Assembly: GCA_913773715.1 (NCBI GenBank)
Contig: CAJYHD010000100.1
Location: 1 to 19,200 of the forward strand
Source: an uncultured Sphingobium sp.
Lineage (GTDB): Bacteria > Pseudomonadota > Alphaproteobacteria > Sphingomonadales > Sphingomonadaceae
Length of the DNA: 19,200 nucleotides
Direction: 5' to 3'
This document shows positions 1 to 16,623 of this stretch, piece after piece; the stretch's first letter is position 1; the number at the start of each line of letters is the position of its first letter. The notes below the pieces were generated by a model that was not told where the DNA came from, made no database searches, and was given only the letters and a program-made list of their open reading frames with translations. The position numbers and the translations under genes are program-made.

Positions 1-1
1 G

Positions 2-265
2 CGAGGGCCAGCCATGCTCGATGACCGCGCCCCACAGGATCAGGACATTGACCCCCGAATAGGACCGGGCGGTGAGCGCGTTGCGCGGCAGGCCGGGGCC
101 GGTCCCGCCCGTCCGGCCCCATGGCTGGACCCAAGGGAAGCGCCCGGCTTCGAGTTCGGAGACGATCCGCGCCGTCACCTCGTCATAGAGATTGGCGCGC
201 GTGTCGGTCCGACGATCCTCGCCCGCATCCTGTCGGCGGGCACGGCGGTTGGTGGTCTTGCGCAT
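2..265 (-). CDS. ardC: ArdC-type antirestriction protein, N-terminal part (runs off the window)
   Basis: The reading frame starts at an ATG whose first base is 265 and stays open to the left edge, giving 88 residues without a stop. A good ribosome binding site (GGAGG, 8 bases upstream) supports the start. After a basic N-terminus (MRKTTNRRARR) it reads LYDEVTARIVSELEAGRFPW and then VQPWG, the typical opening of the ArdC N-terminal domain (DUF1738), a single-stranded-DNA-binding domain. ArdC proteins of plasmids and ICEs protect incoming single-stranded DNA during conjugation; the C-terminal metalloprotease-like domain would lie outside the window. Neighbouring genes also look like ICE backbone. 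The family call is firm, but antirestriction activity is inferred. Confidence 0.85.
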   Translation of the reverse strand, partial: MRKTTNRRARRQDAGEDRRTDTRANLYDEVTARIVSELEAGRFPWVQPWGRTGGTGPGLPRNALTARSYSGVNVLILWGAVIEHGWPS

Positions 266-620
266 CGCTGTCCTCCATCGCCACCCCAAAAGCAGCAAGC
301 CTCCCCGGAAGGCGGGGGTGGGCGGCGAGACGCGACCAAGAGGCCCGGCTTCGAGCGGGCGAAGACACCGAAGGGCGGAACGGAGTGGAGCACCCCGAAG
401 GGGTTGGCTTTGCCCGCGACGGGCCTAGCCGGGAGCGCCGCCCGCACCCGCCGTACCGGGAGAGGCACAGACAACGCCGCCGCGCGACGGCGCGGCGTCA
501 TCGGCCACGCCAGCGATCGTCACCGCATGGCCGAGACCCGGCATGGGGCTCGGCGAAGACCGCCGACGGCGGTCGAGTAGAGCGCGGTCGCGCCCTGCGC
601 GAGGCGCACCGTTCCTGACG
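266..620. other. Intergenic stretch without a supported gene
   Basis: This 355-base, very GC-rich stretch lies between the start of the ArdC-type gene and the end of the SIR2-like gene. Open frames exist on both strands, but their translations are rich in Arg, Pro and Ala and show no family character, and none has a convincing ribosome binding site. It contains the hairpin at 478-497 and part of the palindrome at 614-625. It should also hold the promoter of the ArdC-type gene, but no clear -35/-10 pair was found. Confidence 0.6.
478..497 (-). terminator. GC hairpin downstream of the SIR2-like gene
   Basis: CGCCGCGC (478-485) and GCGCGGCG (490-497) form a perfect 8-bp stem with a GACG loop, about 125 bases beyond the stop of the minus-strand SIR2-like gene. 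The T-run expected of an intrinsic terminator is weak (GTTGTCTG on the minus strand). It could be a weak terminator or only GC-rich background. Confidence 0.3.
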
Positions 621-625
621 TCAGG
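614..625. repeat. 12-bp perfect palindrome at the SIR2-like stop codon
   Basis: CCTGACGTCAGG is a perfect palindrome that overlaps the stop codon (621-623) of the SIR2-like gene. The function is unknown and it may be chance. Confidence 0.3.
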
Positions 626-1520
626 CGTGCAGCCAGCCCGGGTTCTCGTAGATCTCGCGATAGCTGTCGGCCTCGATGCAGCGGATGCCGACGGATTCGA
701 GGAAGAAGTGCTTGCCCGCCTGCCGTTCGTCACGCGGATCATCCACATAGACATACCAGGCATCGTGACGACGATCGGGGAACAGGCGGAAATACTTCGC
801 CCGCTCGATCAGGAGCCAGCGCAGGAAGACCTCGTTCTCGGCAAGCGCCAGCCCCAGGAACAGCAGCGGCTTGTTGAAGACGAGGTGCATCCACGTCCTC
901 GCACCCTGCCAGTCGCGACGGTTCTTGGCGCGGAACAGGTTCTCCTCTCCGCTGCCCTGGATCCACGTGCCGGCGCGCCGGACCGACTGCATGTAATGGC
1001 TGAGGCCGAGGCGGATGCTGGTCCTGTACCGGGCCATGCCGTTGATGTGCCAGATGCCGAAATCGGCACAGGGATCGTCGACGAGACGAGGCGCGAAATG
1101 GCAGCCCCAGGGATAGAAGGCGGTGAACTTCGGATCGGGCGGGAACTGGAACGTGCAGCCGCCGGCCTCGCTCAGCACCTCGTCGAAATTGGTGGTGAGC
1201 ACCGGCGTGCGGTGGCGCAGCGCCCAGCCCATGATCTCGCGGTGATGGGGAAACGGGCGCCAGTCGGCCATCGACCGGCAGAATTCGGCCTGCAGCGAGC
1301 CGGTCTTGGCGTCCGACTTGAGTTCGACGACATCGTAGAATTCGGTGAGCGCAGTGCCCGGCGGGACGCTGCTCACGCCGGGGATGCAGTCGCGGGCGAT
1401 GCCGATCAGCAGCGCGTCCCAGCTGTTGGTCGCGGCCGCGTTGGCGTGGCGGTTGATGCCGTTGCCGATCACGAGCGCCAGGTCCGGCTCGCGCCGTCGC
1501 AGCAAGGTCTCCAGCTTCAT
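621..1520 (-). CDS. SIR2-like domain protein, candidate anti-phage NADase
   Basis: This is a 299-residue protein with hallmarks of the SIR2/TIR-like NAD-binding fold used by defence proteins. Residues 17-23 (VIGNGIN) form the glycine-rich nucleotide loop. TTNFD at 109-113 carries the conserved Asn. HING at 158-161 matches the position of the catalytic His. LLFLGLALAENEVFLRWLL (from 219) matches the C-terminal LGxSLxDxxxxxLL motif of SIR2_2-type proteins. The ATG at 1520 is preceded by AAGGGGGACGGGG. In SIR2 defence proteins the domain destroys NAD+ on phage sensing. No separate sensor domain or partner gene is visible, so the protein may act alone or have lost a partner. It lies between an ArdC-type gene and ICE regulatory genes, consistent with carried defence. 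The fold is fairly sure; the defence role is inferred. Confidence 0.75.
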   Translation of the reverse strand: MKLETLLRRREPDLALVIGNGINRHANAAATNSWDALLIGIARDCIPGVSSVPPGTALTEFYDVVELKSDAKTGSLQAEFCRSMADWRPFPHHREIMGWALRHRTPVLTTNFDEVLSEAGGCTFQFPPDPKFTAFYPWGCHFAPRLVDDPCADFGIWHINGMARYRTSIRLGLSHYMQSVRRAGTWIQGSGEENLFRAKNRRDWQGARTWMHLVFNKPLLFLGLALAENEVFLRWLLIERAKYFRLFPDRRHDAWYVYVDDPRDERQAGKHFFLESVGIRCIEADSYREIYENPGWLHA

Positions 1521-1542
1521 CCCCGTCCCCCTTGAACAACAC

Positions 1543-1563: not shown

Positions 1564-1589
1564 CAGAGCCTCCGCTGCCCGCGAAGGGA

Positions 1590-2294
1590 TCAATAGACCG
1601 CGTCCTCCACCGGCAGGCCGAGATCGAAATCGCTGTCGCGGCCGATCGTGCCGAGGTGCCGGTTGCCGTCGAGATGGGTCAGCCGATAGGCGTGGGCGAC
1701 GCCGCCCTCGGCGCGCGTGCTGGTGAACCGCTCGGTGTGGACCAGGTCGTTGACGGCGAGGATGTTGAGCGCCGGCCGGATGCGATCGTTGGCGACGCCG
1801 CAATGCTCGGTGATCTTCTCGTAGCTGATCGGCGCCATGTTCATCGTGTTGTTCCGGCGTGCCGCGAACAGGAAATAGAGCTTCAGCGCGTCCAGCTCGA
1901 CGCGCGAGCGGAGCTTGAACTCGGCGAAGGCGCGGACGCGGTCGCCGACATAGAGGCCGCGCACCGGCAGCTTCGCCCAGTTGCCGAGCGCGTTGTAGTC
2001 GGCCAGCCGATAGCCGCTGCGCTGGCCCGGGACCTTCTCGATCAGGCCGCGGGCCTCGAGGATCGAAAGGCCACCGGCGACCTTCGCCCGACTGAGGTCG
2101 GCCGCCTGGCAGAGCTGGTCGTAGGTCAGCTTCACCGACCCGTCCTCGGGATCCATGTGATGGGCGAGGACGGCGAGCAGCATCAGCGCCGCCGTCTCGT
2201 CCGAGCCGCCCTGCTGCCACTTGAACGCCTTCAGACCGCCCGCGTCGATCCAGCGGACGGGCAGCTTCACGAAGACAGGCCGCTTCACCTTCAC
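1590..2294 (-). CDS. Protein with two winged-helix domains, possibly replication- or partition-related
   Basis: The frame gives 234 residues from a GTG whose first base is 2294. This start is chosen because the GTG overlaps the TGA of the upstream microprotein (GTGA) and follows AGGGG. Further upstream the frame loses protein character. Two winged-helix-like units are suggested. Residues about 32-97 read LTYDQLCQAADLSRAKVAGG, then SILEARGLIEKV, then a GYRL wing. Residues about 114-187 read APISYEKITEHCGV, later LNILAVNDLV and a HAYRL wing. Tandem winged helices occur in plasmid replication initiators and in ICE regulators, but no specific family could be named. The link to the mobile element comes from context. 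Confidence 0.65.
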   Translation of the reverse strand: MKVKRPVFVKLPVRWIDAGGLKAFKWQQGGSDETAALMLLAVLAHHMDPEDGSVKLTYDQLCQAADLSRAKVAGGLSILEARGLIEKVPGQRSGYRLADYNALGNWAKLPVRGLYVGDRVRAFAEFKLRSRVELDALKLYFLFAARRNNTMNMAPISYEKITEHCGVANDRIRPALNILAVNDLVHTERFTSTRAEGGVAHAYRLTHLDGNRHLGTIGRDSDFDLGLPVEDAVY

Positions 2295-2434
2295 TTCGAC
2301 TGCCCCTTCACGACGCTGTGCACGACGTAGAGGCAGCCCGCGGCGAGGGCGATCGCGGCCAGGGCGATGAGCCCGATCCACTGCTCGGGCGGCAGGCCGG
2401 AGAAATGGGAGAGAAAATCCAGAATGTTCTTCAT
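2291..2434 (-). CDS. 47-residue single-pass membrane microprotein
   Basis: An ATG whose first base is 2434, with AGGAG about 9 bases upstream, opens a 47-codon frame ending at TGA (2293-2291). The peptide begins MKNILDFLSHFSGLPPEQW, then has a hydrophobic stretch of about 20 residues (IGLIALAAIALAAGCLYVV, residues 20-38) and a short polar tail ending KGQSK. This fits a small integral membrane protein. Its stop overlaps the GTG start of the winged-helix gene by 4 bases, so the two are probably translationally coupled. Strong RBS, composition and coupling argue it is real. Function is unknown. Confidence 0.65.
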   Translation of the reverse strand: MKNILDFLSHFSGLPPEQWIGLIALAAIALAAGCLYVVHSVVKGQSK

Positions 2435-2704
2435 CGACGATGCTCCTGTCAGTTCGACATGAGCAATTTTTTGCCACAGCCAACGTCTCTATATCTAGAA
2501 GCACTCGCGGGCAATCGGCGTCATTCCCCGACAGAATCTGTGATATAACAGGGAGATAAGGTCAGAAATGTCAGTGTTCGGTGGGAACGGTTTCAGTTCA
2601 CGAAGCGCCCCACATGAACTTACAAGTACGTTCAGCGCCCGAATCGGTCCGGATCATCGTTCGCGCCGCAACGCTGCCGCCGGCGGACCGGAATTGGAAG
2701 TACC
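2435..2704. other. Intergenic stretch, probable promoter region of the microprotein operon
   Basis: These 270 bases lie between the end of the QseM-like gene and the start of the microprotein gene and are more AT-rich than their surroundings at 2460-2580. A weak promoter-like pair on the minus strand (TTGCCC near 2516 and TAGATATAGAG near 2500) could drive the microprotein and winged-helix genes, but the spacing is not ideal. No gene is supported here. Confidence 0.35.
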
Positions 2705-2977
2705 TCAGTGACGGTCAGGCGCGGGACGCGCGGAAAAAGCGCCGACCGCTGCCTCCATCCCGTCGCTGATGATCCAGCGCGCGCGTTCGATGTGCGAGCG
2801 CCAACATGCTTCGGCATCGGCGCACGCAACTTCCAGCTGCATCAGCGAAGACGCCGCCTCCTGCCAGCTTCGGCCTGCGTCGTCAGCATCGAGAAGGGCA
2901 GCATAGAGTGCCAGGTTGCGACGATCGTAATCGACGACCTGCCTTCCACTCGGCGCGCGCTGCGCGATGCCGCCCAT
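2705..2977 (-). CDS. qseM: QseM-like antiactivator, small DUF2285-type protein
   Basis: This is a 90-residue protein starting at ATG 2977 with an excellent ribosome binding site (GGAGGAG, 6 bases upstream). The core pattern is YD (17-18), LYAALLDA (24-31), SW (37-38), W59, SH (61-62) and RARW (65-68). From memory this matches small DUF2285-type proteins on alphaproteobacterial ICEs, including QseM of Mesorhizobium ICESym, where it binds and inhibits the LuxR-type activator TraR and the excision activator FseA. It diverges from a 68-residue Xre-type gene, as qseM does from qseC. The luxR, luxI and FseA-like genes lie just beyond. The antiactivator role is inferred from size, motif and gene order; similarity could not be measured here. 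Confidence 0.65.
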   Translation of the reverse strand: MGGIAQRAPSGRQVVDYDRRNLALYAALLDADDAGRSWQEAASSLMQLEVACADAEACWRSHIERARWIISDGMEAAVGAFSARPAPDRH

Positions 2978-3062
2978 CTAATCTCCTCCAGACTGGGGCA
3001 TCCTTAGCGAATGGGAACTATCGTTCCTAGCACTTTCGTTCCTGTTCCATGATCCAATCGGG
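2978..3062. promoter_or_regulatory. Divergent control region with operator-like repeats (qseC/qseM)
   Basis: This 85-base gap separates two divergent starts. It contains GGAAC (3014-3018) and GTTCC (3023-3027), a 5-bp inverted repeat with a TATC spacer; CGTTCCT repeated directly at 3022-3028 and 3037-3043; and a further GTTCC at 3044-3048. Spaced copies of one half-site between divergent genes are what an Xre-type repressor controlling both promoters would bind. In Mesorhizobium QseC acts this way on qseM and qseC. Individual promoter elements could not be assigned. Confidence 0.55.
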
Positions 3063-3269
3063 ATGGACCTGAAGCAAGTTCTGGCGAAAAATCTGCGACG
3101 GATTCGCCATGAACGCGACTTGACGCAAGAGGATGTCGCCGGGCTGACCGGCCTGAGCCTGCGTTACGTCGGATCGATCGAACGTGGAAGAGTGTCGGCC
3201 AGCGTCACGGTGCTCGGCAAGCTCGCGACTGCGCTGAAGATCGATCCCTGCGCCTTGATCACGTCCTGA
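3063..3269 (+). CDS. qseC: QseC-like Xre-family HTH regulator
   Basis: This 68-residue protein is almost entirely one Cro/CI-type helix-turn-helix domain: NLRRIRHERDLTQEDVAGLT, then LSLRYVGSIERGR in the recognition region, then LGKLATALKIDP. The ATG at 3063 follows a weak ribosome binding site (AATCGGG), suggesting low or leaderless-like expression. It diverges from the QseM-like gene across a repeat-bearing gap and ends convergently, overlapping the DUF2285 frame on the other strand by 11 bases (3259-3269). In Mesorhizobium QseC is a small Xre-type protein that represses qseM and sets a bistable switch. HTH assignment is firm; the QseC role rests on context. Confidence 0.8.
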   Translation: MDLKQVLAKNLRRIRHERDLTQEDVAGLTGLSLRYVGSIERGRVSASVTVLGKLATALKIDPCALITS

Positions 3270-3840
3270 CGGCAGGACCACTCGACATTCGGCGGCGCCG
3301 GTCGCCACGATCGTTCAGGACGGCGCGCGGCCCGGCGAGGAGCATTTCGTCGCCGCTGGCGATCATGCGTCTGATCATGGATTTCCGATGCTCGCCGTCG
3401 CCAGGCCAGTCACCGGAGCCGAGCACACGGTCAGCGATGTCCTTGAGGCTTGCCCCGGCGTCGCGACCATCGACCGCGTTCAATGACAGCAGCCGACGCG
3501 CAAGTTGAAGGTGAACGCCGTGATGCCGTCGGCCGCGGAGGCTGCGGATGACGGTGATACGTTGCTCCAGCCAGTCGTTGTCGGGCAGATCGAAATGTAG
3601 TCGGAACGGTCCCCCGACTGCCACGTGATCGACGAGGTCGACCCTGAGAAGGTCGCCGCGATCTATCAGAAGATGCTCGGTTTGCGAGGACCACATCCTG
3701 CGGGCCACCGGCGAAAGCGCGAGCAGGCCGTTCAAGCCTTCGCCGGATGCCGGGACCGCGCGCGCCGTGAGCACGCGCGGGTCGACGGCCGCCGACCACA
3801 TCGGCCGGACGATGGCGCAGCTGTGCGCCGGATCCTCAGC
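3259..3840 (-). CDS. fseA: Downstream half (DUF2285-like) of a frameshifted FseA-type excision activator
   Basis: This frame ends at 3259. An ATG at 3801 could give 180 residues on its own, but family-like sequence continues upstream of it: AEDPAHSCAIVRPMW, beginning at 3840. That segment continues the WGLHF motif ending the upstream half, so the natural product is a fusion made by a +1 shift at 3841 (55 + 193 = 248 residues). The body (LLRVDLVDHVAVGGPFRLHF, then LQLARRLLSLNAVDGRDAGA and SLKDIADRVLG) matches DUF2285-type proteins of ICEs. In Mesorhizobium ICESym the pair msi172/msi171 is joined by programmed +1 frameshifting to make FseA, which activates excisionase expression. The 3' end overlaps the convergent QseC-like gene. 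The alternative is a decayed gene with a one-base insertion, but both halves are otherwise intact. Confidence 0.65.
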   Translation of the reverse strand, partial: AEDPAHSCAIVRPMWSAAVDPRVLTARAVPASGEGLNGLLALSPVARRMWSSQTEHLLIDRGDLLRVDLVDHVAVGGPFRLHFDLPDNDWLEQRITVIRSLRGRRHHGVHLQLARRLLSLNAVDGRDAGASLKDIADRVLGSGDWPGDGEHRKSMIRRMIASGDEMLLAGPRAVLNDRGDRRRRMSSGPAVRT

Positions 3841-3844
3841 GAAA
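3836..3844 (-). other. Candidate programmed +1 frameshift site (TTT CGC TGA)
   Basis: On the minus strand the 0-frame reads CTG CAC TTT CGC TGA, with TTT at 3844-3842. Skipping the single C at 3841 gives TTT GCT GAG GAT and joins the two halves as WGLHF-AEDP. A Phe-tRNA on TTT can slip one base forward onto TTC, which its usual GAA anticodon pairs with better, and a 0-frame stop follows after one codon. These are plausible ingredients of +1 recoding. A sequencing error or simple mutation would look the same in a single sequence. Confidence 0.55.
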
Positions 3845-4006
3845 GTGCAGCCCCCAGCGTGACACGAAGGCGGCGTCTGCCGGCAGACCAGAAGCGACCG
3901 CCTGATTGGCGCGATAGGCGGGATCGCGCCGCAGCACTTCCCAGGCGAGCGCCGAGCGACCGCGCTGCAGGATTGCCTCGAAGGCGTCAGGGTCCGGCGC
4001 GAACAT
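3836..4006 (-). CDS. Upstream half (DUF6499-like) of the FseA-type activator, 0-frame product
   Basis: An ATG at 4006 with GAGG about 7 bases upstream opens 56 codons ending at TGA (3838-3836). The peptide contains SALAWEVLRRDPAYRAN (residues 18-34), the AWEFLRRNPxY-like motif of DUF6499-type proteins, and ends RWGLHFR. In related single-frame proteins that motif is followed directly by an FAxDP-type segment, which here is in the +1 frame. It lies 8 bases after the stop of the PhyH-family gene and probably belongs to the luxI operon. It corresponds to msi172 of Mesorhizobium. Without frameshifting it would yield only this short peptide. Confidence 0.7.
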   Translation of the reverse strand: MFAPDPDAFEAILQRGRSALAWEVLRRDPAYRANQAVASGLPADAAFVSRWGLHFR

Positions 4007-4014
4007 GACGAGCC

Positions 4015-4881
4015 TCAGCCGAGTTCGCCCATCTGCGATCGCAGGAACAGGTCGGCGGCCTCGGCTTGGTCGGGTCGCAGGGCGTCGATGGCGGGCAAAT
4101 GGTCGGGCACGGCGCCGCCGAGCAGGATCGACGGGCATTGCCCTTCGACGTTGCCGAGGTTCGGCCGGTGCTGCGCGTAGCCGACCAGCGCCGCGAGCTC
4201 GGGCGTGAAGTGTCGCGCGATCTGCGGCGGGTAGACGAGCCACTGGAGCTCGAAGGGCTTCAGCCAGCCGAGGCAGTAGCTGATGACGATCCCGCGACGC
4301 GGCGCCGGGCTGGCATTGCCACCGCCGCCGTGCAGGGTCGAGCCGAGGAAGATCAGGGCGTCGCCGGGCTGCACCGTCGGCACAAGACTGTCACGCTCTG
4401 GCAGCACCGGGACGTCTTGGTCGAAGTGGCTGCCTGTCCAGAGCCGCGTGCCGCCGTTGTCGACGGTGAAGGTGGTCAGCGGCCACATGACGTTCACGAG
4501 ATATTCGAGGCTGCCCTTCGGTCCCTGCCACATGTCCTGATCGCGGTGTGGCAGCTGCGGCAAAGCTCCGGGATGGATCTCGATCGCCTGGGTGAGGTTG
4601 AGCGCGATCCGCTCGCACCACGGCAGCAGCATCTGCCCGACGATCTCGAGGATCAGCGGGTGCATGACCAGGCGTTCGACCGCCGGCGAACGGGTCAGCA
4701 GCGAACCGAAACGCTTGGTGCGTGCGCCGTAGAAGACTCCCTCGCACAGCGGGGTCGCGGCGAAGCGTCCTTCCAAGTCGGCCTCGATGCCGGTGACGAT
4801 CGCAGGATCGACCGCGCGGCCAAACATGCACCAGCCGTCGCGCGCGAGCGTCCCGGCATGGCGTTCCGTCACGGCGCTCAT
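4015..4881 (-). CDS. Phytanoyl-CoA dioxygenase (PhyH)-family Fe(II)/2-oxoglutarate oxygenase
   Basis: This 288-residue protein shows the PhyH jelly-roll features. The metal triad is H112 and D114 (LPHRDQD) plus H184 (STLHGGGGN). R195/R196 (PRRGIVISY) is in the position that binds the 2-oxoglutarate carboxylate. The family hydroxylates small molecules and acyl chains; the substrate here is unknown. The ATG at 4881 overlaps the luxI stop by 4 bases (ATGA), so luxI and this gene are translationally coupled, and the FseA-like gene follows 8 bases after its stop. A PhyH-family gene beside luxI/luxR is, as far as I recall, recurrent in sphingomonads. The oxygenase might modify the autoinducer or its acyl precursor, which is inference only. 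Confidence 0.85.
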   Translation of the reverse strand: MSAVTERHAGTLARDGWCMFGRAVDPAIVTGIEADLEGRFAATPLCEGVFYGARTKRFGSLLTRSPAVERLVMHPLILEIVGQMLLPWCERIALNLTQAIEIHPGALPQLPHRDQDMWQGPKGSLEYLVNVMWPLTTFTVDNGGTRLWTGSHFDQDVPVLPERDSLVPTVQPGDALIFLGSTLHGGGGNASPAPRRGIVISYCLGWLKPFELQWLVYPPQIARHFTPELAALVGYAQHRPNLGNVEGQCPSILLGGAVPDHLPAIDALRPDQAEAADLFLRSQMGELG

Positions 4882-5483
4882 GCCCGCACCCGGACGTCGG
4901 CGGCGGGGTAGACGCCTGTCCAGCGGAGTCGTTCGGGCGTGTCGGGCCTGACATGGATCAGAAAGGCACCGATGGGGCCGCCGGGGATGCGGACCGCCGG
5001 GCCCAGCGGCTCGGCCTGCCAGCCCATCGACAGCACCTCCTTGCGGAACGGATCGGGAATCACGCCGGTATAGCGTTCGATCCCGCGGTCCAGCGCCACG
5101 TCGACCATCGCGGCGAAGAGCGCGTTGCGAAGTTCTCGCCGGCGCTCGGCGCCATGGCGCTGCGGCAGGCACAGCCGCGTGCTCTCCCAAGTTCCGTCAT
5201 CGACCGGAACGCCGAGCGGACAGAGATGCGGGAACAGGGTGCCGAGCATATGCGGCTGCGTGCTCGGGAAGAGCCGGATCGAGGCCGCATGGCTGCCGTC
5301 GTCGTCGGCGGCGATCAGATAGACGGTATGGGCATTGTCGAACTGGTCGATCTCGTACTGCCCGTCGATGACGGGCACTTCCCAGCCGAACAGGTCGACG
5401 AACAGGCGCTTGCGGTCGGCGAACATGGAATGCAGCAGCGTGCGGTTTTCCGGCGCCAAGTGATTGTCGATGACGTGGATCAT
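4878..5483 (-). CDS. luxI: LuxI/TraI-family N-acyl-homoserine lactone synthase
   Basis: The 201-residue product makes an acyl-homoserine lactone from S-adenosylmethionine and an acyl donor. Nearly all conserved LuxI residues are visible: R24/R26, F28, W34 (RKRLFVDLFGW), D46 and D49 (EIDQFD), R70 (ASIRLFPS), and E100/R103 (WESTRLCL). The ATG at 5483 begins MIHVIDNHLAPENR, a typical family N-terminus, and is preceded by a purine-rich GGGAG. Upstream alternatives lack family sequence. It lies 71 bases downstream of luxR on the same strand and overlaps the PhyH-family gene by 4 bases. The acyl chain cannot be predicted from sequence. Confidence 0.93.
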   Translation of the reverse strand: MIHVIDNHLAPENRTLLHSMFADRKRLFVDLFGWEVPVIDGQYEIDQFDNAHTVYLIAADDDGSHAASIRLFPSTQPHMLGTLFPHLCPLGVPVDDGTWESTRLCLPQRHGAERRRELRNALFAAMVDVALDRGIERYTGVIPDPFRKEVLSMGWQAEPLGPAVRIPGGPIGAFLIHVRPDTPERLRWTGVYPAADVRVRA

Positions 5484-5498
5484 GAGGGGGGCTCCCGG

Positions 5499-5516
5499 TC
5501 GTGGTGTCACGCACGA
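5499..5516. promoter_or_regulatory. 18-bp imperfect dyad in the luxR-luxI gap
   Basis: TCGTG (5499-5503) and CACGA (5512-5516) are inverted arms 8 bases apart, giving an 18-bp dyad, the size of a TraR box. It lies only about 15 bases upstream of the luxI start, closer than expected for an activator site, so it could equally be chance or a leader structure. Confidence 0.25.
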
Positions 5517-5554
5517 TGGAAGCAGCAGCGGCGCTCTCGAAACAGACCGAGCGA

Positions 5555-6343
5555 TTACTCGGGTTGACGGCGGGAGATCTCGTGCAGGCCGACTTCACCA
5601 GCGAGCACCGCGCAGACGACAAGCTCTGTACGATCGTGGGCGTCGAAGACGCGACGCGCTTCGGTGAGGTAGCCGTCGACGGTGCGCGGAGTGAGGGCAA
5701 GCGCCCGCGCGATCCGCTTGTTCGAATAGCCGCGACCAGCAAGCACGACGCAATCGCGTGGACGTGGGTGCAGCCTCGGTATCGACGCAACTGGGGGCCG
5801 ATCGGAGAACTTCAGTTTCAACGCCGCCTGGAACGCGAAGATTCCGATCATCTGCGCGGCGCCAAGGAAGCGGTGCGATTTTTCGGGCTGGGACGTTCCG
5901 GCAAACGTGCATGAACCCATACGGTCGCCGAGGCGAACGTAGGGAACGGTGATACCCTCGTTCAGCCCTTCTCGGGCGCCGATCTCGAAGCTTGCGCGAT
6001 CCTGTCGGTCGAGATGAATGATCTTCGACAGTTCGGACCAGAGGAAGGCCCCGTCAGCAAAAATGCAGCCACGGATCACCGGGTCGCGCCGGTAGCGGCG
6101 CTCGCCGATCAGCCGTTCGGCGATTGCTGCCGGATAATCGCGGAAATCGACGAGGTCGCTGCGGTCATGGCTCAGATCATCGTGATGGATCAGCGCGTAA
6201 TGACGGAAGCTCAATGCTCGCGTTATCGCCTCCATCAATCCTGTCAGCGCCGCGGGTGTTTCGACCTGGCGCAACGCATCGACGACGGCGCTGGTAAGCG
6301 CGAGAGAGGACAGGCATCGGGACAAGGCGAGGTCCGAGACCAT
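5555..6343 (-). CDS. luxR: LuxR/TraR-family quorum-sensing regulator
   Basis: The 262-residue protein (ATG at 6343, MVSDLALSRC) has an N-terminal autoinducer-binding domain (about 25-175) and a C-terminal LuxR helix-turn-helix (about 192-245: RPRDCVVLAGRGYSNKRIARAL, then TPRTVDGYLTEARR). Of the canonical ligand-pocket residues, D87-P88 (RRDPV), W102 (FLWSEL) and G130 are present. The positions usually held by Trp57 and Tyr61 of TraR appear to be I74 and L78. An upstream start at 6400 is possible but adds a sequence without domain character. The gene precedes luxI and diverges from a TetR gene across a gap with a 24-bp palindrome. It probably controls luxI, the PhyH-family gene and the FseA-like gene. 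Confidence 0.9.
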   Translation of the reverse strand: MVSDLALSRCLSSLALTSAVVDALRQVETPAALTGLMEAITRALSFRHYALIHHDDLSHDRSDLVDFRDYPAAIAERLIGERRYRRDPVIRGCIFADGAFLWSELSKIIHLDRQDRASFEIGAREGLNEGITVPYVRLGDRMGSCTFAGTSQPEKSHRFLGAAQMIGIFAFQAALKLKFSDRPPVASIPRLHPRPRDCVVLAGRGYSNKRIARALALTPRTVDGYLTEARRVFDAHDRTELVVCAVLAGEVGLHEISRRQPE

Positions 6344-6469: not shown

Positions 6470-7117
6470 TTGGCGGCGAACAAGGGCGATTCTCGCGTCA
6501 ATCTGCTCGATGCGGCCGAAGCGCTGTTTGCTGAAAAGGGGTTCGATGGGACTTCCACACGGGAAATCGCGGCGCGGTCGGGCGACACACTCGGGACGCT
6601 GAGCTACCATTTCGCCTCGAAGCAGAAACTCCTGGAGGAAATTCTCCGTAGGCGTTTCGCCGATGTCGATCAGCTCCGGTGGAACTACTACAGGAAATCC
6701 ATCGAGGCAGCGGATGGCCGTGTGCCCACCGTGGAGGAAATCCTCAAATCGATTGTGTACCCCTATCTCGACCTTACCTATTCCGGCGAGACCGGATGGA
6801 ACAATTACATAAACCTTTTGGGACGGGTGCGCGAATCCGGCAATTCCGATCAGCAAAAGTTCTTTCTCGACTTCGCCTTGCCGTACGCGAAGACCTGCAT
6901 CAGCTGGCTCCAGGCGGCAGCGCCGGGAGCGTCGCAGGCGGAGGTGGCCCACGCCTACGAATTCTCGAGCATGCTGGCGATCCTGTCGTGCTCGACGATC
7001 GCGCGGAACCGTCTCGCGAGGCTTTCCGACAGCAGCAAGCTCGAGCCGGCCGATCACCGGAGCCACCTCCTGCAATTTGTCAACGCCGGCGCATCGGCGA
7101 TCCTGCGCCAGGACTGA
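6470..7117 (+). CDS. TetR-family transcriptional regulator
   Basis: A TTG at 6470, with GGAG about 9 bases upstream, gives a 215-residue protein beginning with the expected short lead (AANKGDSRV). The TetR helix-turn-helix follows: LLDAAEALFAEKGFDGTSTR (12-31), EIAARSG, then TLSYHFASKQKLLEEIL (43-59). The C-terminal ligand domain has a family-typical LLGRVRESGN segment and a FALPYAKTCISWL segment. Extending upstream would run through the luxR control region and is unlikely. It converges on the CoA-transferase operon with 13 bases between stops, so it may regulate that pathway, itself or luxR. The ligand is unknown. Confidence 0.88.
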   Translation: MAANKGDSRVNLLDAAEALFAEKGFDGTSTREIAARSGDTLGTLSYHFASKQKLLEEILRRRFADVDQLRWNYYRKSIEAADGRVPTVEEILKSIVYPYLDLTYSGETGWNNYINLLGRVRESGNSDQQKFFLDFALPYAKTCISWLQAAAPGASQAEVAHAYEFSSMLAILSCSTIARNRLARLSDSSKLEPADHRSHLLQFVNAGASAILRQD

Positions 7118-7130
7118 TAGAATAAACGTC

Positions 7131-7802
7131 TCATCCTGAGGCCTCGCTTTGTCGTCGCCCCCACTCTGCGATGCTGAAATGAGCGCTCGTTGCCGCACGA
7201 ACCTCTTCAAGGCCGACGCCGGGGGCCAGCTCGACAAGTTCGAAGCAACTCTCATGGTCGGCTCGACCGAACACGCACAGGTCGGTGACGATCATGTCGA
7301 CGGCATTCTTGCCGGTGAGCGGCAGGGTGCACGCCGGGATGAACTTCGGCTCCCCGGTCTTGCTGGTGTGCTCCATCACCACGATGATCTTCTTGACGCC
7401 GGCGACGAGATCCATCGCACCGCCCATGCCCTTGACCATCTTCCCGGGGATCATCCAGTTGGCGATGTCGCCGTTCTCGGCCACTTCCATCGCGCCGAGG
7501 ACCGCAAGATCGATATGCCCTCCGCGGATCATCGCGAAACTGTCGGCGGAAGAGAAATAAGCCGTCTGGGGCAGCTCCGAAACGGTCTGCTTGCCGGCGT
7601 TGATCAAATCCGCGTCCTCTTCACCGTCCCATGGAAATGGGCCGATGCCGAGCATCCCGTTTTCCGACTGGAATGTGACCGTCACGCCTTCACGAACATG
7701 ATTGGCGACCAGAGTGGGGATGCCGATACCGAGGTTGACGTAAAAGCCGTCCTCTAGCTCGTCCGCGGCACGCGCCGCCATCTCGCTTCGGGTCCAAGGC
7801 AT
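7131..7802 (-). CDS. scoB: Succinyl-CoA:3-oxoacid CoA-transferase, subunit B
   Basis: This 223-residue protein is subunit B of a family I CoA-transferase. E47 in [10 protein letters not shown] (45-54) is the catalytic glutamate that forms the CoA thioester. The GIGIPTLV loop at 25-32 and [12 protein letters not shown] are also family-typical. With subunit A it transfers CoA from succinyl-CoA to acetoacetate or another 3-oxoacid. Its ATG shares one base with the subunit A stop (TGATG), ensuring coupled synthesis. Placement downstream of a fumarylacetoacetase, which releases acetoacetate, favours acetoacetate as substrate. A beta-ketoadipate (PcaJ-type) role is an alternative, but no other pca gene is in view. 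Confidence 0.92.
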
Positions 7803-8509
7803 CAGACGGCCTCCAGCTTGCGAACGGTGCGCTGTTCGATCTTCTTGTCGTAGGGTGCGCCCACGATCAGGCGGTTGACGTATATGCCCGGCAGGTGGAT
7901 CGCATCGGGATCAAGGCTGCCTACGGGCACAATCTCCTCGACCTCGGCCACGCAAACCCGACCCGCGGTCGCCGCCGGATGATTGAAGTTTCGCGCGGTC
8001 TTGCGGAAGATGAGGTTACCGCTCTCGTCCGCCTTCCAGCCCTTGATGATGGACAGGTCCGCGAAGATGCCATGCTCCAGTATGAAATCCTCGCCACCGA
8101 AGCGCTTCACCTCCTTGCCCTCCTCGACCGCCGTACCGACGCCCGTCTTGGTGTAGAAGCCGGGGATGCCGGCACCGCCCGCGCGCAGTCGCTCCGCCAG
8201 CGTGCCTTGAGGACAGAATTCGACGTCCAGCTCTCCGGTAAGGAACTGGCGCTCGAACTCCTTATTCTCGCCGACGTAGGAGGCGATCATCTTGCGGACC
8301 TGCCTGCTCCTGAGGAGCTTCCCGATGCCTTCATTGTCGATGCCGGCGTTGTTCGAGGCGAAGGTGAGCTCGCCGACGCCCGACGCCTCGATCGCCTCCA
8401 ACAGACGCTCGGGAACTCCGCAGAGCCCGAAGCCTCCGCTGGCGATCGTCATGCCTGCGAACAGGACGTCCTTGAGCGCCGATTGGGCATCATCGTAGAT
8501 CTTATTCAA
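7802..8509 (-). CDS. scoA: Succinyl-CoA:3-oxoacid CoA-transferase, subunit A
   Basis: The 235-residue product begins [12 protein letters not shown] from a TTG at 8509, matching the usual family start (MNKIY), with AGGGGG upstream. An ATG at 8539 in the same frame would add ten residues that are not family-like, but cannot be excluded. The glycine-rich CoA loop [16 protein letters not shown], a NNAG segment, and [20 protein letters not shown] are typical of alpha subunits of family I CoA-transferases. It works with subunit B immediately downstream, with a 1-base stop/start overlap. It is the sixth gene of the seven-gene operon. Confidence 0.9.
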
Positions 8510-8554
8510 CTGCTGTGCCCCCTTGAGAACAAACGGCATGCGCGTTCCGCATGC

Positions 8555-9322
8555 TCAATCGAGGCGCGCGACAGCGCGCGTCCAACCGGCGGATGCGCCC
8601 TCGATCTTCACCGGGAAGCAGATGACCGTGAAGCCGGCGGCAGGAAGCTGCTCGAGACCATGCAGCTTTTCCATCTGGAAGTAGCCGCACTCCATTCCCG
8701 CCTTGTGGCCCTCCCAGATAATCGCTGGGTCCTTGGTTGCCGCGAAGCGCTTGGCAGTATGACTGAAGGGAGCGTCCCAGCTCCATGCGTCCGTTCCGAC
8801 GACCCGCACACCTCGATCGGTCAGATAGATGGTCGCTTCACGCCCCATCCCGCAACCGGCGTCAAGGTAGCCCGGTTGCCCGTAGATGGCCCCGGCGCGC
8901 GTATTGACGAGCACGATGTCGAGCGGCGCAAGCTGATGCCCGATACGGTCAAGCTCCTGCTCGACCTCGGCCGCTGTGACGACGTGACCATCAGTGAGGT
9001 GACGGAAGTCGAGCTTGACGCCGGGCTTCATGCACCACTCCAGCGGCACCTGATCTATGGTGGTCGCCGGCTGACCTCGGTCCATCGTCGGATGATAGTG
9101 CCATGGCGCGTCCATATGCGTGCCGTTGTGCGTCGAGATGTGCAGCTTCTCGACGGCCCACGCCTTACCCTCGGGAAGGTCGGCCACGGAGAGGCCCGGA
9201 AAGCGCGCGACCATCCCCTCCGCCGTTTGATCGTGGTCGAGATAAGTAATCTCGACCTGATTCGTGGAAGGGTCGGCATGCGGATCGTGCCGGAGCGTCA
9301 CTGAAAGATCGACTAGCCTCAT
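8555..9322 (-). CDS. Cyclase-family (kynurenine formamidase-like) metal-dependent hydrolase
   Basis: This 255-residue protein has the HxGTHxDxPxH motif as H65-N-G-T-H69-M-D71-A-P-W-H75, the metal-binding signature of the cyclase/KynB superfamily. Members hydrolyse amide or ester bonds or act on cyclic diketones and lactones; the substrate here is unknown. The ATG at 9322 overlaps the fumarylacetoacetase stop by 4 bases (ATGA) and has a good GGGAGA site. Its place between a diketone hydrolase and a CoA-transferase suggests a ring- or ester-opening step. No tryptophan-pathway gene is nearby, so kynurenine formamidase activity is less likely. Confidence 0.82.
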   Translation of the reverse strand: MRLVDLSVTLRHDPHADPSTNQVEITYLDHDQTAEGMVARFPGLSVADLPEGKAWAVEKLHISTHNGTHMDAPWHYHPTMDRGQPATTIDQVPLEWCMKPGVKLDFRHLTDGHVVTAAEVEQELDRIGHQLAPLDIVLVNTRAGAIYGQPGYLDAGCGMGREATIYLTDRGVRVVGTDAWSWDAPFSHTAKRFAATKDPAIIWEGHKAGMECGYFQMEKLHGLEQLPAAGFTVICFPVKIEGASAGWTRAVARLD

Positions 9323-10665
9323 GCTGATTCTCCCTCGGGCACGACACGCCCCGCGCAGGGGCCGAAGGCGATGGAGCGATAGGCTGGTCGCCGGCAGAGC
9401 GCCGAAAGCACGATCTCATCGCCGTCTTCGAGATAGGTCCGCGTCGAGGCGCTTCTCAGCGTAAGCGGGCTGGCCCCGTTCCTCGTGAGCTCCAGGAGGC
9501 TGCCGGATTGCTCCAGATTCGGCCCCGAGATCGTTCCCGATCCGATCAGATCGCCCGGCCGCAGCGTGCAGCCGTTGACGCTGTGATGAGCAAGCATCTG
9601 CGCAGGAGTCCAGTAAAGGTGACGCGTGTTCGAGTGCGCGATCACCTCCGGAGGCACTGCCGTTCCGCCGCCCTGCGAGGCGCACAATGATACCAGTAGC
9701 TCGATGTCGAGGGCGCCCGACGCCTGATCATCGCCGTCGAGCAGATAGCTTGGCGGATCGCCATGCTGTGGGTCCCTTGGCGATGCGGCGACGCGAAACG
9801 GCGCCAACGCATCCCATGTGACGATCCATGGGGATATGGTCGTGGCGAAGCTCTTGCCGAGGAACGGACCCAAGGGCGTCATTTCCCAACGCTGGATGTC
9901 CCGCGCGGACCAATCGTTGAGTAGGCACACGCCCGCGATCCGCTGGGCGGCATCGCCGATGCTCATACGCCCGCTGGCTGTCCCACAGACGAAAAGGCCC
10001 AACTCGAGCTCGAAGTCGAGAGCGCGCGTCGGCGCGCAGGCGACCTCGCCGGTGTCGACGTCCGGAAAGGGTCCGTGTGGCCTCCGTATCTCCGCGCCGC
10101 TGACACGAACGGTCGATGCCCGTCCGTGGTAGCCGATCGGCTGCGTTCCATAATTCGGTGAAAGAGTGGAGCCCGGTCGCGCAATCGACCCGGCGCGACG
10201 AGCATGCTCGATGCCCGCGTAGAAGTCCGTGTAGTCGGGAATGCTGGTGGGCAGCAGCAATTCGCACTCGGAACTGGGCACAAGCAGGTCCAAGCGCCTT
10301 CGATACAGCTCGTTCTCGATCGACGCCTGGGCAAACCCCGCGCTCAATCGCCGGCGCAACTCGCGCAAGGGATGCCTCCCCAAAGCGAGAAGAAAATCGA
10401 GCGTCGCCGTTTCGATGTGGGATCGCTTTATCTCATCCGGCATGAACGCAGCCGGCAGGGCCGCCAGATCTATGATGTGGTCGCCGATCGCCACACCCGC
10501 GCGTGGCGAACTAGAGCCGTGTCGGAATATGCCGATCGGCAGATTCTGGATCGGGAAAGCTGTGCCTGGCTCTTCCGCGCCTGCGAGCCAGCTCGTGCGC
10601 GCGGGATCGTGCGTTTCGTCCAGATCCCTGTCCGCCCAGACCACGCGGGTCATCGAGCCGGTCAT
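9319..10665 (-). CDS. fahA: Fumarylacetoacetase (FAH family)
   Basis: This 448-residue protein is full length for FahA and begins at ATG 10665, overlapping the acyl-CoA dehydrogenase stop by 4 bases; ATG 10653 is an alternative. The catalytic and metal residues are present: D147 (DYTDFY), H154 (GIEHARRAG), E219 and E221 (FELELGLFV) and D251 (LLNDWSARDIQ), with GYHGRAS at 178-184. The enzyme normally cleaves 4-fumarylacetoacetate to fumarate and acetoacetate at the end of tyrosine/homogentisate breakdown. No homogentisate dioxygenase or maleylacetoacetate isomerase is in the window, so it may act on another 1,3-diketone acid. The CoA-transferase pair further down the operon would activate the acetoacetate. 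Confidence 0.88.
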   Translation of the reverse strand: MTGSMTRVVWADRDLDETHDPARTSWLAGAEEPGTAFPIQNLPIGIFRHGSSSPRAGVAIGDHIIDLAALPAAFMPDEIKRSHIETATLDFLLALGRHPLRELRRRLSAGFAQASIENELYRRRLDLLVPSSECELLLPTSIPDYTDFYAGIEHARRAGSIARPGSTLSPNYGTQPIGYHGRASTVRVSGAEIRRPHGPFPDVDTGEVACAPTRALDFELELGLFVCGTASGRMSIGDAAQRIAGVCLLNDWSARDIQRWEMTPLGPFLGKSFATTISPWIVTWDALAPFRVAASPRDPQHGDPPSYLLDGDDQASGALDIELLVSLCASQGGGTAVPPEVIAHSNTRHLYWTPAQMLAHHSVNGCTLRPGDLIGSGTISGPNLEQSGSLLELTRNGASPLTLRSASTRTYLEDGDEIVLSALCRRPAYRSIAFGPCAGRVVPEGESA

Positions 10666-11825
10666 GCAGCGCGCAGGAGGTCGCGGGCGACCACCCAACG
10701 GTGAATTTCGGTCGGGCCATCGTAGATCCGCATGAGCCGGACGCGGGCCGCCATCATGTGCAGCGGCATTTCCTTGCTCGCGCCCATCGCACCAAACGCC
10801 TGCATCGCATGGTCGATGACTTGGGTAGCCAGGTCGGTTGCCTGAACCTTGATGATCGAAACGAGCGTGCTGACGTCCTCACCCCGGTCGAGGCGCCAAG
10901 CGATCTCGAAGGCCAATAGACGGCACGATCTGATCCCCGTCGCCGCATCCGCGATCCACCATTGGACGGACTGTCGCTCGGACAGCGGCACGCCGAATGT
11001 CACACGCTCCTTCACATGCGACATCATCATCTCAAGCGCGCGCTCGGCTGCGCCGATGCACCAGGTCGCGATCTCCAGGCGTCTGGTCGCCAATCTCGTC
11101 TGCATCGGTCCGAAGCCTTGTCCTTCGGCACCGAGCAGAGCTCCATGCGGGACGATCACGTCGTCATAGACGACCTCGTAGGTGTAGGTCCCGCCGATCA
11201 TCCGTATCGGACTACTGACAGCGATTCCGGGAAGATTCTGATCGACGAGGAACGCCGACAATTCCTGCCGCGCGGCGTCGGGCAAGCTCGTCAACGCCAT
11301 CACGATGGTGAAGTCGGCCTTGTCCGCCTTGGATATCCAGATCTTGGTTCCGGAGATGCGCCATCCTTCGGGCGTCTTGACGGCTCGGGTCTTCATCCGC
11401 CGCGGGTCGGACCCGGCACCGGGTTCGGAGATGCCGATCGCCGAGATGGTCGTGCCGCGCACGTAAGGCGCCAGGTATCGCTCGCGTTGCTCGGCGTCCG
11501 CAGCGGCCATTAGCATTCGCAGGTTGGGTGAATCCGGCGGGAAATTGTAGGGAACGACCGTCCGGCCGAGGACGAGATTGACGGCGGTCACCGCGACATG
11601 GGGAAGGTCCGATCCGCCGAATTCCTCCGGAGCATCCATGCCCCACAGCCCCAGCGCCTGCGCCTTGTGATCGACTCTCTCGAGATCGGATTGTTCCAGG
11701 ATTGCTTCTCCGCCGGCAGCTTCCCTCACGAGGAGCTTCGGTTCCAAGGGAGAAAGCTCGTCCGCCACGAAGCGTTCGACCAAGCGCACCAGTTGCTGAT
11801 GCTCGTCGTCCAGTTCGAAGTTCAC
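10662..11825 (-). CDS. Acyl-CoA dehydrogenase, ACAD10/11-like
   Basis: This 387-residue flavoprotein starts at a GTG (11825) that overlaps the upstream stop (GTGA) and follows AGGAG. It shows the FAD-binding signature GISEPGAGSD (from 121), KIWISKADKADF, a mid-protein TRRLEIATWCIGAAERALE helix and RVTFGVPLSERQSVQ. The motif holding the catalytic base in medium-chain enzymes (YEG) is YDG here, with D369 in place of Glu; YDGPTEIHR is common in ACAD10/11-like proteins. It would introduce a 2,3-double bond into an acyl-CoA. Tight overlap on both sides shows it belongs to the seven-gene operon. Confidence 0.92.
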   Translation of the reverse strand: MNFELDDEHQQLVRLVERFVADELSPLEPKLLVREAAGGEAILEQSDLERVDHKAQALGLWGMDAPEEFGGSDLPHVAVTAVNLVLGRTVVPYNFPPDSPNLRMLMAAADAEQRERYLAPYVRGTTISAIGISEPGAGSDPRRMKTRAVKTPEGWRISGTKIWISKADKADFTIVMALTSLPDAARQELSAFLVDQNLPGIAVSSPIRMIGGTYTYEVVYDDVIVPHGALLGAEGQGFGPMQTRLATRRLEIATWCIGAAERALEMMMSHVKERVTFGVPLSERQSVQWWIADAATGIRSCRLLAFEIAWRLDRGEDVSTLVSIIKVQATDLATQVIDHAMQAFGAMGASKEMPLHMMAARVRLMRIYDGPTEIHRWVVARDLLRAA

Positions 11826-12586
11826 GCTTCGTGCTCCTGCAAATTCGAGAATTGTGGGGTTCGCCGCTCCGCGCTGGCGCGGACGCCCTCGTCGAAGTCG
11901 GGTGCGGCAAAGAGCGGCCTCTGCAATCCGAGCTCCCTCACGACCGCGGCTGCAAAATGATCGGCATCGTCGCGCCCGAGGAGACGAAGCGTGGCCGATG
12001 TCGCAGCCGGCGAGTTGGCGGCGATCTCCGTTGCCAGGGCGAGCGCCGCATCCTGCAGCGTGCCAGCCTCGACGACCCTGTCGAGCAATCCGATGGCGAG
12101 AGCCTCGCGCGACGGTACACGCCGTGCGGTCAGCAAAAGGTCGCGAGTGCGCTGCGGGCCTACGACCCGGGGCATGGTGAAGCTGATGCCGAAGCCAGCC
12201 GAAATTCCGATCCGCGTGAAATTGGCTTGAAACCAGGATGTATCGTCGCCGATGCGAAGATCGGCGACAAGCGCCAGGCCCAAGCCACCGCCCACGGCGG
12301 CTCCGCCGATCGCCGCGACCAGCGGCTTCGTCCGCTTCAGGAGCTTGACGGCAGAAGTATATATCGGCCCGGGATCGGGTCGCCGGCCTTCGCCGAAATC
12401 GGCTCCGGCACAGAAGTTCTTGTGCTTTGACACGAGCAGAGAGACCCGGACCTCGGGATCGGACTCGCATCGTTCGAGGATTGCGGCAATTTCTTCCAGC
12501 ATCGCAACGTCGAAGAAGTTGTGCGGCGGACGATCGAGGGCCAGACAAGCAACCGGCCCTATACGATCGAGGCGAACGACGGTCAT
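11822..12586 (-). CDS. Enoyl-CoA hydratase/isomerase-family protein lacking one catalytic Glu
   Basis: This 254-residue protein has the crotonase fold. Oxyanion-hole segments are KNFCAGADF (56-64) and GGAAVGGGLGLAL (94-106). Aligned by eye with rat crotonase, the position of Glu144 is F123 (ANFTRIGIS) and that of Glu164 is D149 (RTRDLLLT). A two-Glu hydratase mechanism is therefore doubtful; isomerase, hydrolase or lyase chemistry on a CoA ester is possible. The ATG at 12586 overlaps the CaiB/BaiF stop by 4 bases, and its own stop overlaps the next start. Confidence 0.87.
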   Translation of the reverse strand: MTVVRLDRIGPVACLALDRPPHNFFDVAMLEEIAAILERCESDPEVRVSLLVSKHKNFCAGADFGEGRRPDPGPIYTSAVKLLKRTKPLVAAIGGAAVGGGLGLALVADLRIGDDTSWFQANFTRIGISAGFGISFTMPRVVGPQRTRDLLLTARRVPSREALAIGLLDRVVEAGTLQDAALALATEIAANSPAATSATLRLLGRDDADHFAAAVVRELGLQRPLFAAPDFDEGVRASAERRTPQFSNLQEHEA

Positions 12587-13749: not shown

Positions 13750-13948
13750 CCGCGTCCTTCTCCTGGCCCACAGCAAAGGGAACAGCGACTTCATCGCGGT
13801 CGGTGTGCTGGCCTCTTTTCCCGTGCGATTGCAGGCAGTCTGACTGCAGCGCGACGGTCCTAGCTTGGATACGCCACCTCGGTCCGCGCATGAAGATGCC
13901 GAGCCAAAAATCCATATTTGGATTTAGCGCATCGAGCGCTTAGGTCGT
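13750..13948. promoter_or_regulatory. Leader and promoter region of the catabolic operon
   Basis: These 199 bases lie between the iclR stop and the CaiB/BaiF start. A 24-bp site matching one upstream of iclR occurs at 13904-13927. No clear -35/-10 pair was found downstream of it on the minus strand. A weak CTCGG...CCGAG inverted repeat is present near 13880-13904. No gene is supported. Confidence 0.4.
13904..13927 (-). promoter_or_regulatory. Putative IclR-type operator, copy 1 (catabolic operon side)
   Basis: Read on the minus strand the site begins CTAAATCCAAATAT and ends TTTTTGG. It matches the site at 14764-14787 at 21 of 24 positions. It contains AAATCC and GGATTT as inverted arms around a 6-base spacer (13908-13925). 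It lies 154 bases upstream of the CaiB/BaiF start and just after the iclR stop. Confidence 0.6.
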
Positions 13949-14752: not shown

Positions 14753-14903
14753 CGCGCTCCCGATCTAAATCCAAATATTGATAATTGGTGGTTGATATCG
14801 CTTCTCGGTTCAACCGGGAATATTAGGTCGGGAAACTTCGGGAGCCGCTCCAGTACGTCGTGAGGATAGCGAGGTAGCTCCCTTCCAAGAGAAGGCCCTC
14901 GCC
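14753..14903. promoter_or_regulatory. Divergent iclR/acyl-CoA dehydrogenase control region
   Basis: This 151-base gap separates two divergent starts and is AT-rich at 14764-14800. It holds the second IclR-type site and a small perfect palindrome, CGGTTCAACCG (14805-14815). TTGATA occurs at 14778-14783 and 14791-14796, but no well-spaced -10 element could be paired with either. Confidence 0.45.
14764..14787 (+). promoter_or_regulatory. Putative IclR-type operator, copy 2 (iclR promoter side)
   Basis: The site begins CTAAATCCAAATATTGAT and ends ATTGG. It matches the minus-strand reading of 13904-13927 with three mismatches in 24. It ends 12 bases from the iclR start, suggesting autoregulation, and lies about 117 bases upstream of the divergent acyl-CoA dehydrogenase. 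Confidence 0.6.
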
Positions 14904-16601: not shown

Positions 16602-16623
16602 GGGTCATTGTTGCTTTTGAAGG

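Follow-up and report, generated by a model that had tools for sequence, protein, structure and literature searches.

A candidate quorum-sensing transfer-decision module of an ICEMlSym-like element in an uncultured Sphingobium

What is decided by a compact set of quorum-sensing genes lying beside a catabolic cluster in a sphingomonad? The question is raised by a stretch of 19,200 nucleotides from an uncultured Sphingobium sp. (assembly GCA_913773715.1, contig CAJYHD010000100.1, positions 1-19,200, forward strand), hereafter referred to as the window. The set is very probably the transfer-decision module of an integrative and conjugative element (ICE) resembling ICEMlSym of Mesorhizobium. At the level of sequence, this reading is carried by the following: (i) the identities of the genes; (ii) a frameshift site; (iii) an FseA-type inverted repeat in close relatives; (iv) the pairing of QseC repressor classes with operators; (v) an ICE backbone; and (vi) element ends in two relatives. 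Such a module would link the luxR-luxI-phyH set of sphingomonads, noticed but unexplained, to the choice of a conjugative element between staying and moving; this bacterial family is known to spread genes for the degradation of pollutants. Papers are cited by PubMed Central (PMC) number and, save where a main text is named, through excerpts.

Genes of the module and the frameshifted fseA

The module consists of the following features, of which the operators are called by sequence only:

5555..6343, minus strand: luxR, N-acyl-homoserine lactone (AHL)-binding regulator with a putative TraR-like role (Pfam Autoind_bind, 1.5e-20; GerE, 5e-7)
5547..5562: lux/tra-box-like dyad CCGAGTAATCGCTCGG, located in the window, its centre ~71 bp upstream of luxI
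4878..5483, minus strand: luxI, AHL synthase (Pfam Autoind_synth, 5.9e-23; PDB sequence matches 3p2f, 6wn0 and 6wns)
4015..4881, minus strand: phyH, 2-oxoglutarate/Fe(II) oxygenase (Pfam PhyH, 8e-20; HxD...H...R present)
3836..4006, minus strand: 5' part of fseA, DUF6499 with AWEVLRRD motif (PF20109, 2.3e-11)
3836..3856, minus strand: +1 programmed frameshift site TGGGGGCTGCACTTTCGCTGA
3259..3840, minus strand: 3' part of fseA in the +1 frame, DUF2285, net positive (PF10074, 9.8e-7)
3063..3269, plus strand: qseC, class I Xre repressor of 68 residues (HTH_3, 2.2e-12; class from clustering)
3014..3027: class I operator GGAACGATAGTTCC (class I pattern match)
3030..3042: second class I operator, imperfect, GGAACGAAAGTGC
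2705..2977, minus strand: qseM, lone DUF2285-type antiactivator of 90 residues, net negative (match to 7uqt_A)

An initial annotation had placed a LuxR, a LuxI, a split DUF6499/DUF2285 gene, a QseM-like protein and a 68-residue Xre regulator here; all of them are found where it put them, and Pfam confirms all but QseM. The qseC gene diverges from qseM and converges, tail to tail, on fseA. The start codon of phyH lies on the stop codon of luxI (ATGA overlap) and 8 bp separate phyH from fseA; hence, luxI, phyH and fseA look like one operon. The dyad sits at the end of luxR, and its arms (CCGAG/CTCGG) are exact in nine of the 12 sequences aligned, among them the window; the other three, L008, L010 and L012, have imperfect arms (L numbers denote loci; those found through PhyH are the best 80 of 280 relatives from a scan with a four-row PhyH alignment). 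Published tra-boxes have their centres 67-69 bp upstream of traI genes (PMC5882170). Gene order, spacing and dyad position fit a LuxR/LuxI pair that would drive fseA.

The proposed switch would work as follows: (i) LuxI would make an AHL; (ii) LuxR with AHL would act at the dyad upstream of luxI and drive luxI-phyH-fseA as one operon; (iii) a rare +1 slip at TTT/C (the stroke marks the slip) would join DUF6499 to DUF2285 and yield little full-length FseA; (iv) FseA would bind GTGTCG-N16/19-CGACAC upstream of rdfS, turning on the rdfS, traF and relaxase genes; and (v) expression of these genes would lead to excision and transfer. In most cells, QseM would block FseA (and LuxR), while in a minority of cells QseC, sitting on class-specific operators in the qseC-qseM gap, would switch qseM off.

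PhyH, for its part, probably modifies the acyl chain of the AHL. Its HxD...H...R residues were matched by pattern in 79 of 84 proteins and recognized by eye in the remaining five, and the solved proteins nearest to it by sequence are the natural-product tailoring oxygenases AndA/PrhA. AHL tailoring by PhyH is, on this basis, a lead. 3-Hydroxy AHLs may also form without such an enzyme. The single luxI of one sphingomonad, when over-expressed, gave unsubstituted and 3-hydroxy AHLs plus two unidentified signals (PMC11674143).

The two parts of fseA carry DUF6499 and DUF2285, with the +1 frameshift between them. When TTTC is read as one step, a joined FseA of 248 residues results from the ATG, which begins MFAPDP..., has WGLHFAEDPAHSC as its junction region and is collinear with four natural single-frame relatives (L002, L016, L019 and L033). 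The slip site, TGGGG-...-TTT/C or TTT/T, is kept in 29 of 34 loci, window included (28 TTTC and, in L007, TTTT), in a set where L001 and L004 seem to be duplicates of each other; fseA is fused in four loci and the DUF6499 motif is absent in one (L015). The residues on both sides of the slip are conserved across loci. Sequencing error, considered as a cause of the frameshift, is ruled out by the recurrence of the same site across loci. It is also scarcely credible that the two pieces are a disrupted gene whose joined protein is never made: a single sequence in isolation does show a frameshift, and L007 carries TTTT instead of TTTC, but the same kind of site recurs with the reading conserved on either side, single-frame homologues exist, and the published site likewise has UGGGGG and WGL (PMC10359603). 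The frameshift seen in the initial annotation is genuine. The zero-frame stop lies two or three codons past the slip in 27 of the 29 loci, 20 codons past it in L027 and 41 in L034; given this variation in distance, the stop codon is unlikely to drive the slip. Natural FseA frameshift sites thus offer stop positions from 2 to 41 codons past the slip.

The window QseM, a lone DUF2285-type domain of negative charge, matches the solved Mesorhizobium QseM (7uqt_A) with E 3.6e-4 as a single sequence, and a 24-row QseM profile does so with E 1.1e-15. Net charge is negative in QseM and positive in the DUF2285 part of FseA in 31 of 31 loci; the same opposite polarity of QseM and FseA domain has been published for R7A (PMC10359603). 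The idea that the 90-residue protein is a chance open reading frame (ORF) is ruled out by a 32-locus cluster and the solved homologue. Another idea, that the switch is a property of sphingomonad plasmids, was rejected after a tblastn search with QseM, which found five of 72,556 plasmid records (Hydrogenophaga, Variovorax and uncultured).

Similarity to known proteins therefore exists both for QseM (7uqt_A) and for FseA (PF20109 and PF10074). An ancestral ICESym order, traR-traI-msi172-msi171 beside divergent qseC/qseM, has been proposed in a figure legend (PMC5882170). Since the domain and PDB matches, the frameshift site and a gene order like this ancestral one agree, with ardC at the window edge, the identification of an FseA/QseM/QseC transfer switch holds.

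The element around the module

The backbone was clustered in 36 loci (the window, L001, L002 and L004-L036), many of which end before the backbone genes. After qseM, the usual order in relatives is ardC, DUF2958, parB, DUF736, rdfS (HTH_17), traF (S26), SLT and DUF3363 relaxase, and the counts out of 36 are: ardC 27, parB 19, DUF736 17, traF 17, SLT 13, DUF2958 12, rdfS 11 and DUF3363 relaxase 11. Some loci depart from this order (L014, L015, L026 and L027 among them). The window stops within ardC, which in relatives is the backbone gene that comes next. DUF3363 is present somewhere in 27 of the 28 genomes of these loci.

Upstream of rdfS, GTGTCG-N19-CGACAC (13 loci) or GTGTCG-N16-CGACAC (six loci: L024, L025, L028, L029, L031 and L032) occurs in 19 of 19 close-group loci, a descriptive count, since these are the loci where a pattern found rdfS and the repeat pattern was read from the same loci. 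About three such repeats per Mb occur in shuffles.

Regarding the ends, ten genomes were searched for integrases and four of them (G008, G014, G023 and G026) were read over 100 kb each. A tRNA-Leu(CAG) gene adjoins the integrase upstream of luxR in all four. In two of them, the 15-bp end of the tRNA recurs as a putative attachment (att) site, at a distance of 70.6 kb in G026 and of 55.6 kb in G014. Seven proteins of G026 were tested, and six of them belong by match to the families of TraG coupling protein, TrbB-type ATPase, TrbE, TrbI, integrase and relaxase; the transfer genes of this genome sit between integrase and luxR, and a run of further ORFs comes after them. As a side observation, in G014, whose element measures 55.6 kb, the att copy at the far end lies less than 1 kb from a second integrase match (G014:C1:64645-65982), which suggests tandem elements.

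The remaining features of the window are the following:

1590..2504, minus strand: winged-helix DNA-binding protein, in the qseM-ardC interval, start codon uncertain (HTH_36, 2.6e-6)
621..1520, minus strand: SIR2-like gene, in the same insertion as the winged-helix gene (SIR2_2, E 8e-4, below cut-off)
1..298, minus strand: 5' part of ardC, truncated by the window edge (ArdcN, 2.1e-17)
6470..18434: probable cargo, with TetR, coenzyme A (CoA)-transferases, cyclase, fumarylacetoacetase, acyl-CoA dehydrogenases, CaiB-type CoA-transferase and major facilitator superfamily (MFS) transporter (Pfam)

The winged-helix and SIR2-like genes form an extra insertion between qseM and ardC (621-2504). A homologue of the winged-helix protein also comes next after qseM in L026, and relatives of it occur in 95 plasmid records; PADLOC gave it a weak Csa3 match alone, and it came without a solved relative.

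Positions 7131-18434 hold a catabolic cluster by Pfam (CoA-transferases, cyclase, fumarylacetoacetase, acyl-CoA dehydrogenases and MFS transporter), which occupies the slot matching the run of other ORFs in G026. Because of this layout of the bounded relatives, the catabolic genes would be cargo of the element. The initial annotation had seen here an extension of the switch to a degradative element: the switch does stand near catabolic genes, their status as cargo being conditional, but a sphingomonad degradative ICE, the 73-kb linB ICE of Sphingobium UT26, was already in print (PMC4478539).

A number of observations weigh against the interpretation of the module as the switch of a working ICE. 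The window holds no integrase, rdfS, relaxase, type IV secretion system (T4SS) gene or att site, which lie outside it, nor any FseA-type repeat (rdfS being outside). Hence, calling the switch "complete" was too strong: luxR-luxI-phyH-fseA and qseC/qseM are present, while rdfS, relaxase, integrase and att site were found in relatives. On profile searches, DUF6499, the DUF2285 part of FseA and Xre pass, whereas QseM stays below the Pfam DUF2285 cut-off (E 0.052); however, only six of the 24 members of the QseM profile reach that family even at E 0.1, so that Pfam alone would miss QseM. The FseA-type repeat was found near rdfS in none of 14 distant loci with an rdfS match (L170-L183), which makes the FseA box a feature of the close group only, where its count is, as said, descriptive. 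In G008 and G023, the 100 kb read from each showed no second att copy. R7A has two QseC proteins and the window one. Finally, among the 28 genomes, only that of L026, which is the closest relative, showed no DUF3363; in consequence, the L026 copy, and perhaps that of the window, may be a remnant.

The module as a whole could thus be what is left of a decayed ICE, or a fragment on another replicon, with a switch that is readable but idle. Apart from L026, two things speak for it: in L001, IS1071 transposase genes flank the module, on a plasmid that also has korA and kle, and in two of six further close-QseM loci (close meaning >100 bits) the stretch read gave no match to luxR or luxI. But the coding parts of the window are open, its frameshift site has the common form, both operators are present and ardC follows. 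A remnant is, on balance, unlikely, and we infer that the element of the window is intact. As to L001 itself (Hydrogenophaga pBPS33-2; L004 is similar), its module also carries an HTH (rdfS-like) gene, traF and SLT, its PhyH is 85% identical to that of the window, and its host plasmid is betaproteobacterial and, in view of korA/kle, presumably IncP-1-like.

In a different explanation, luxR-luxI-phyH would be the general quorum-sensing system of the host, located beside an ICE by chance and with a main output other than transfer. A DUF6499 motif follows phyH within 1 kb on its strand in 30 of the best 80 of 280 loci, DUF2285 alone does so in L015, and 49 loci have neither, a count in which L037-L083 stood outside the examination of luxR, luxI and qseM, and in which, for L035 and L055, a gene of FseA type lies upstream. 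In plasmid pSLPG of Sphingobium SYK-6 (L003), luxR-luxR-luxI-phyH lies directly upstream of T4SS genes, and fseA and qseM are not among the annotations at this cassette. Both facts favour a general system, but the pSLPG cassette also abuts transfer genes, four of six loci found through QseM, not through PhyH, have luxR-luxI-phyH-fseA, and fseA is in the window the fourth gene of a tight operon, with qseC/qseM next. A chance neighbourhood is therefore quite improbable, and less probable than a remnant, while a transfer-decision module fits the window well. One relative is wired in another way: L170 (G141:C1, ~5848-10330) has luxR, qseC/qseM and then luxI-phyH-rdfS-traF-SLT as one run, with the DUF6499 motif absent on that strand of 13 kb and the FseA box absent near rdfS. 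Here, quorum sensing may drive rdfS without FseA, as a shortcut.

Repressor classes and their operators

A divergent Xre gene lies 78-174 bp from qseM in 38 of 38 close-QseM loci, to which L144, found later, adds one. Among more distant QseM loci, it is present in 15 of 34 and absent in 19 (first sets), and 12 of the 20 in the last set lack it. The window belongs to the first kind, with its Xre gene divergent from qseM and predicted operators in the gap.

When the Xre proteins were clustered at 55% identity, classes emerged. Operator patterns were set on the PhyH-found loci and then run on all loci. The class I operator GGAACnATnGTTCC is present in all seven class I PhyH-found loci; the class II operator GAGTATACTC in six of 11 class II loci, not being found in the training loci L001, L008, L009, L016 and L019; the class III operator in five of five; and the class IV operator in six of eight, with a second class IV site in eight of eight. 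No class pattern turned up in any other class among all the loci scanned. Exact own-class patterns occur in half of the 14 QseM-found loci in the four classes (L105, L106, L108, L130, L135, L136 and L139).

Position matrices, made from the training loci alone and built after the first held-out sequences had been seen, were run on 29 held-out loci, nine of which are <50% identical to the trained classes. Where identity to a trained class was at least 50%, the own-class operator was found in 12 of 20 loci (z 4.7-9.0): two of two in class I, nine of nine in class II, and one class III locus at 92% identity. The prediction failed in the other eight (L112, L117, L120, L127, L153, L155, L157 and L158), all of them distant class III or IV kin. 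The spacing of the FseA box is a different matter: among the N16 loci, L028 has a class II QseC and the other five a class IV one, and, as this set spans two classes, spacing follows the backbone, not the repressor.

On a tree of PhyH+FseA+QseM (32 loci), the class changes 14 times among five classes, compared with 17.8 changes for shuffled class labels (P 0.013). Because class labels keep this kinship signal, exchange is frequent but not free. Class differs in seven of 13 two-row forks. In the seven near pairs that differ in class, DNA identity is 0.36-0.49 in qseC and gap, and in five of them luxR, luxI, phyH, fseA and qseM stand at 0.58-0.90; the remaining two, L013/L015 and L027/L034, have qseM identities as low as those of qseC (0.43 and 0.42), so that these pairs say little on exchange. 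The window and L026, which belong to different QseC classes, show identities of 0.90 in phyH, 0.82 in fseA, 0.49 in qseC, 0.38 in the gap and 0.65 in qseM. For same-class pairs, qseC identity is 0.92-0.98 in three and 0.60 in the fourth (L001/L008, of different sub-class). What is new here is that qseC and its operators behave, as judged from sequence, as an exchangeable cassette, whose function we infer. Several qseC variants, duplications and rearrangements have been reported in Mesorhizobium (PMC8627217); hence, qseC replacement as such has precedent, while the excerpt of that paper gives no account of class-specific operators.

A more speculative thought, which we consider possible but rather doubtful, is that QseC classes, each with operators of its own, would stop ICEs within the same cell from setting off one another's bistable switch, PhyH giving each ICE a private AHL, so that the whole would act as an exchanged specificity cassette like the immunity regions of phages. 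If true, conjugative elements would have heteroimmunity groups readable from DNA. The relation of repressor class to operator provides a rule, open to direct test, on which ICEs could coexist or cross-activate. In an underpowered comparison, one of 18 within-genome pairs shares a class versus 3.4 expected, which is not significant (P 0.10). One locus (L006 and L109, G002:C6) has two qseC-qseM pairs, with repressors of classes II and I; the second of its QseM matches bears a flag for a single internal TGA.

Comparison with known systems

The window shares with ICEMlSym(R7A) its domains, the +1 frameshift, the contrast in charge between QseM and the FseA domain, the divergence of qseC and qseM (PMC10359603, PMC11963761, PMC5882170, PMC8627217) and a tra-box-like dyad at nearly the same distance (~71 versus 67-69 bp); in the relatives of the window, an inverted repeat also stands at rdfS, and rdfS, traF, SLT and relaxase follow one another in this order. 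It differs in having phyH between luxI and fseA, a single qseC and a sphingomonad host; furthermore, the att site of the bounded relatives lies in tRNA-Leu(CAG), and the repeat spacing is 16 in R7A versus 19 in most close relatives. Across the alpha-, beta- and gamma-proteobacteria, homologues of FseA are already known (PMC10359603).

The luxR-luxI-phyH set (novR-novI-phyH) was already known in sphingomonads (PMC3704786, PMC4288048, PMC5012321), and the window shares this order with it and with plasmid topology T (luxR-luxR-luxI-phyH-X-virB). Yet topology T has two luxR genes and virB, whereas the window has one luxR, with fseA downstream; neither PMC3704786 nor PMC4288048 mentions DUF2285 in its main text. 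The UT26 linB ICE, likened here by description and not by sequence, is a sphingomonad ICE with integrase, relaxase, recombination directionality factor, T4SS and degradative cargo, and in the excerpt of PMC4478539 a regulatory switch is not mentioned. In the Creative Commons-licensed literature, no paper was found that joins the FseA/QseM switch, luxR-luxI-phyH and the linB ICE, or that deals with qseM/qseC operators or with phytanoyl-CoA dioxygenase, AHL and ICE together.

RovC (6xz5) has the same DUF6499 + DUF2285 architecture: an FseA profile of eight proteins, including four that were joined at the slip site, matches it at both ends (E 2.2e-11), while the single joined FseA, searched alone, gave no match to it. 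RovC is, by Pfam's name, an activator of a type VI secretion system and not a conjugative-element regulator. In lambdoid phages, the repressor gene and operators of the immunity region move together from one to another of elements that are similar in other respects; here, by contrast, QseC would turn off an antiactivator. In any case, the type of switch is known, and it is the extra enzyme of the operon, together with the exchangeable unit of repressor and binding site, that makes this a little-explored variant.

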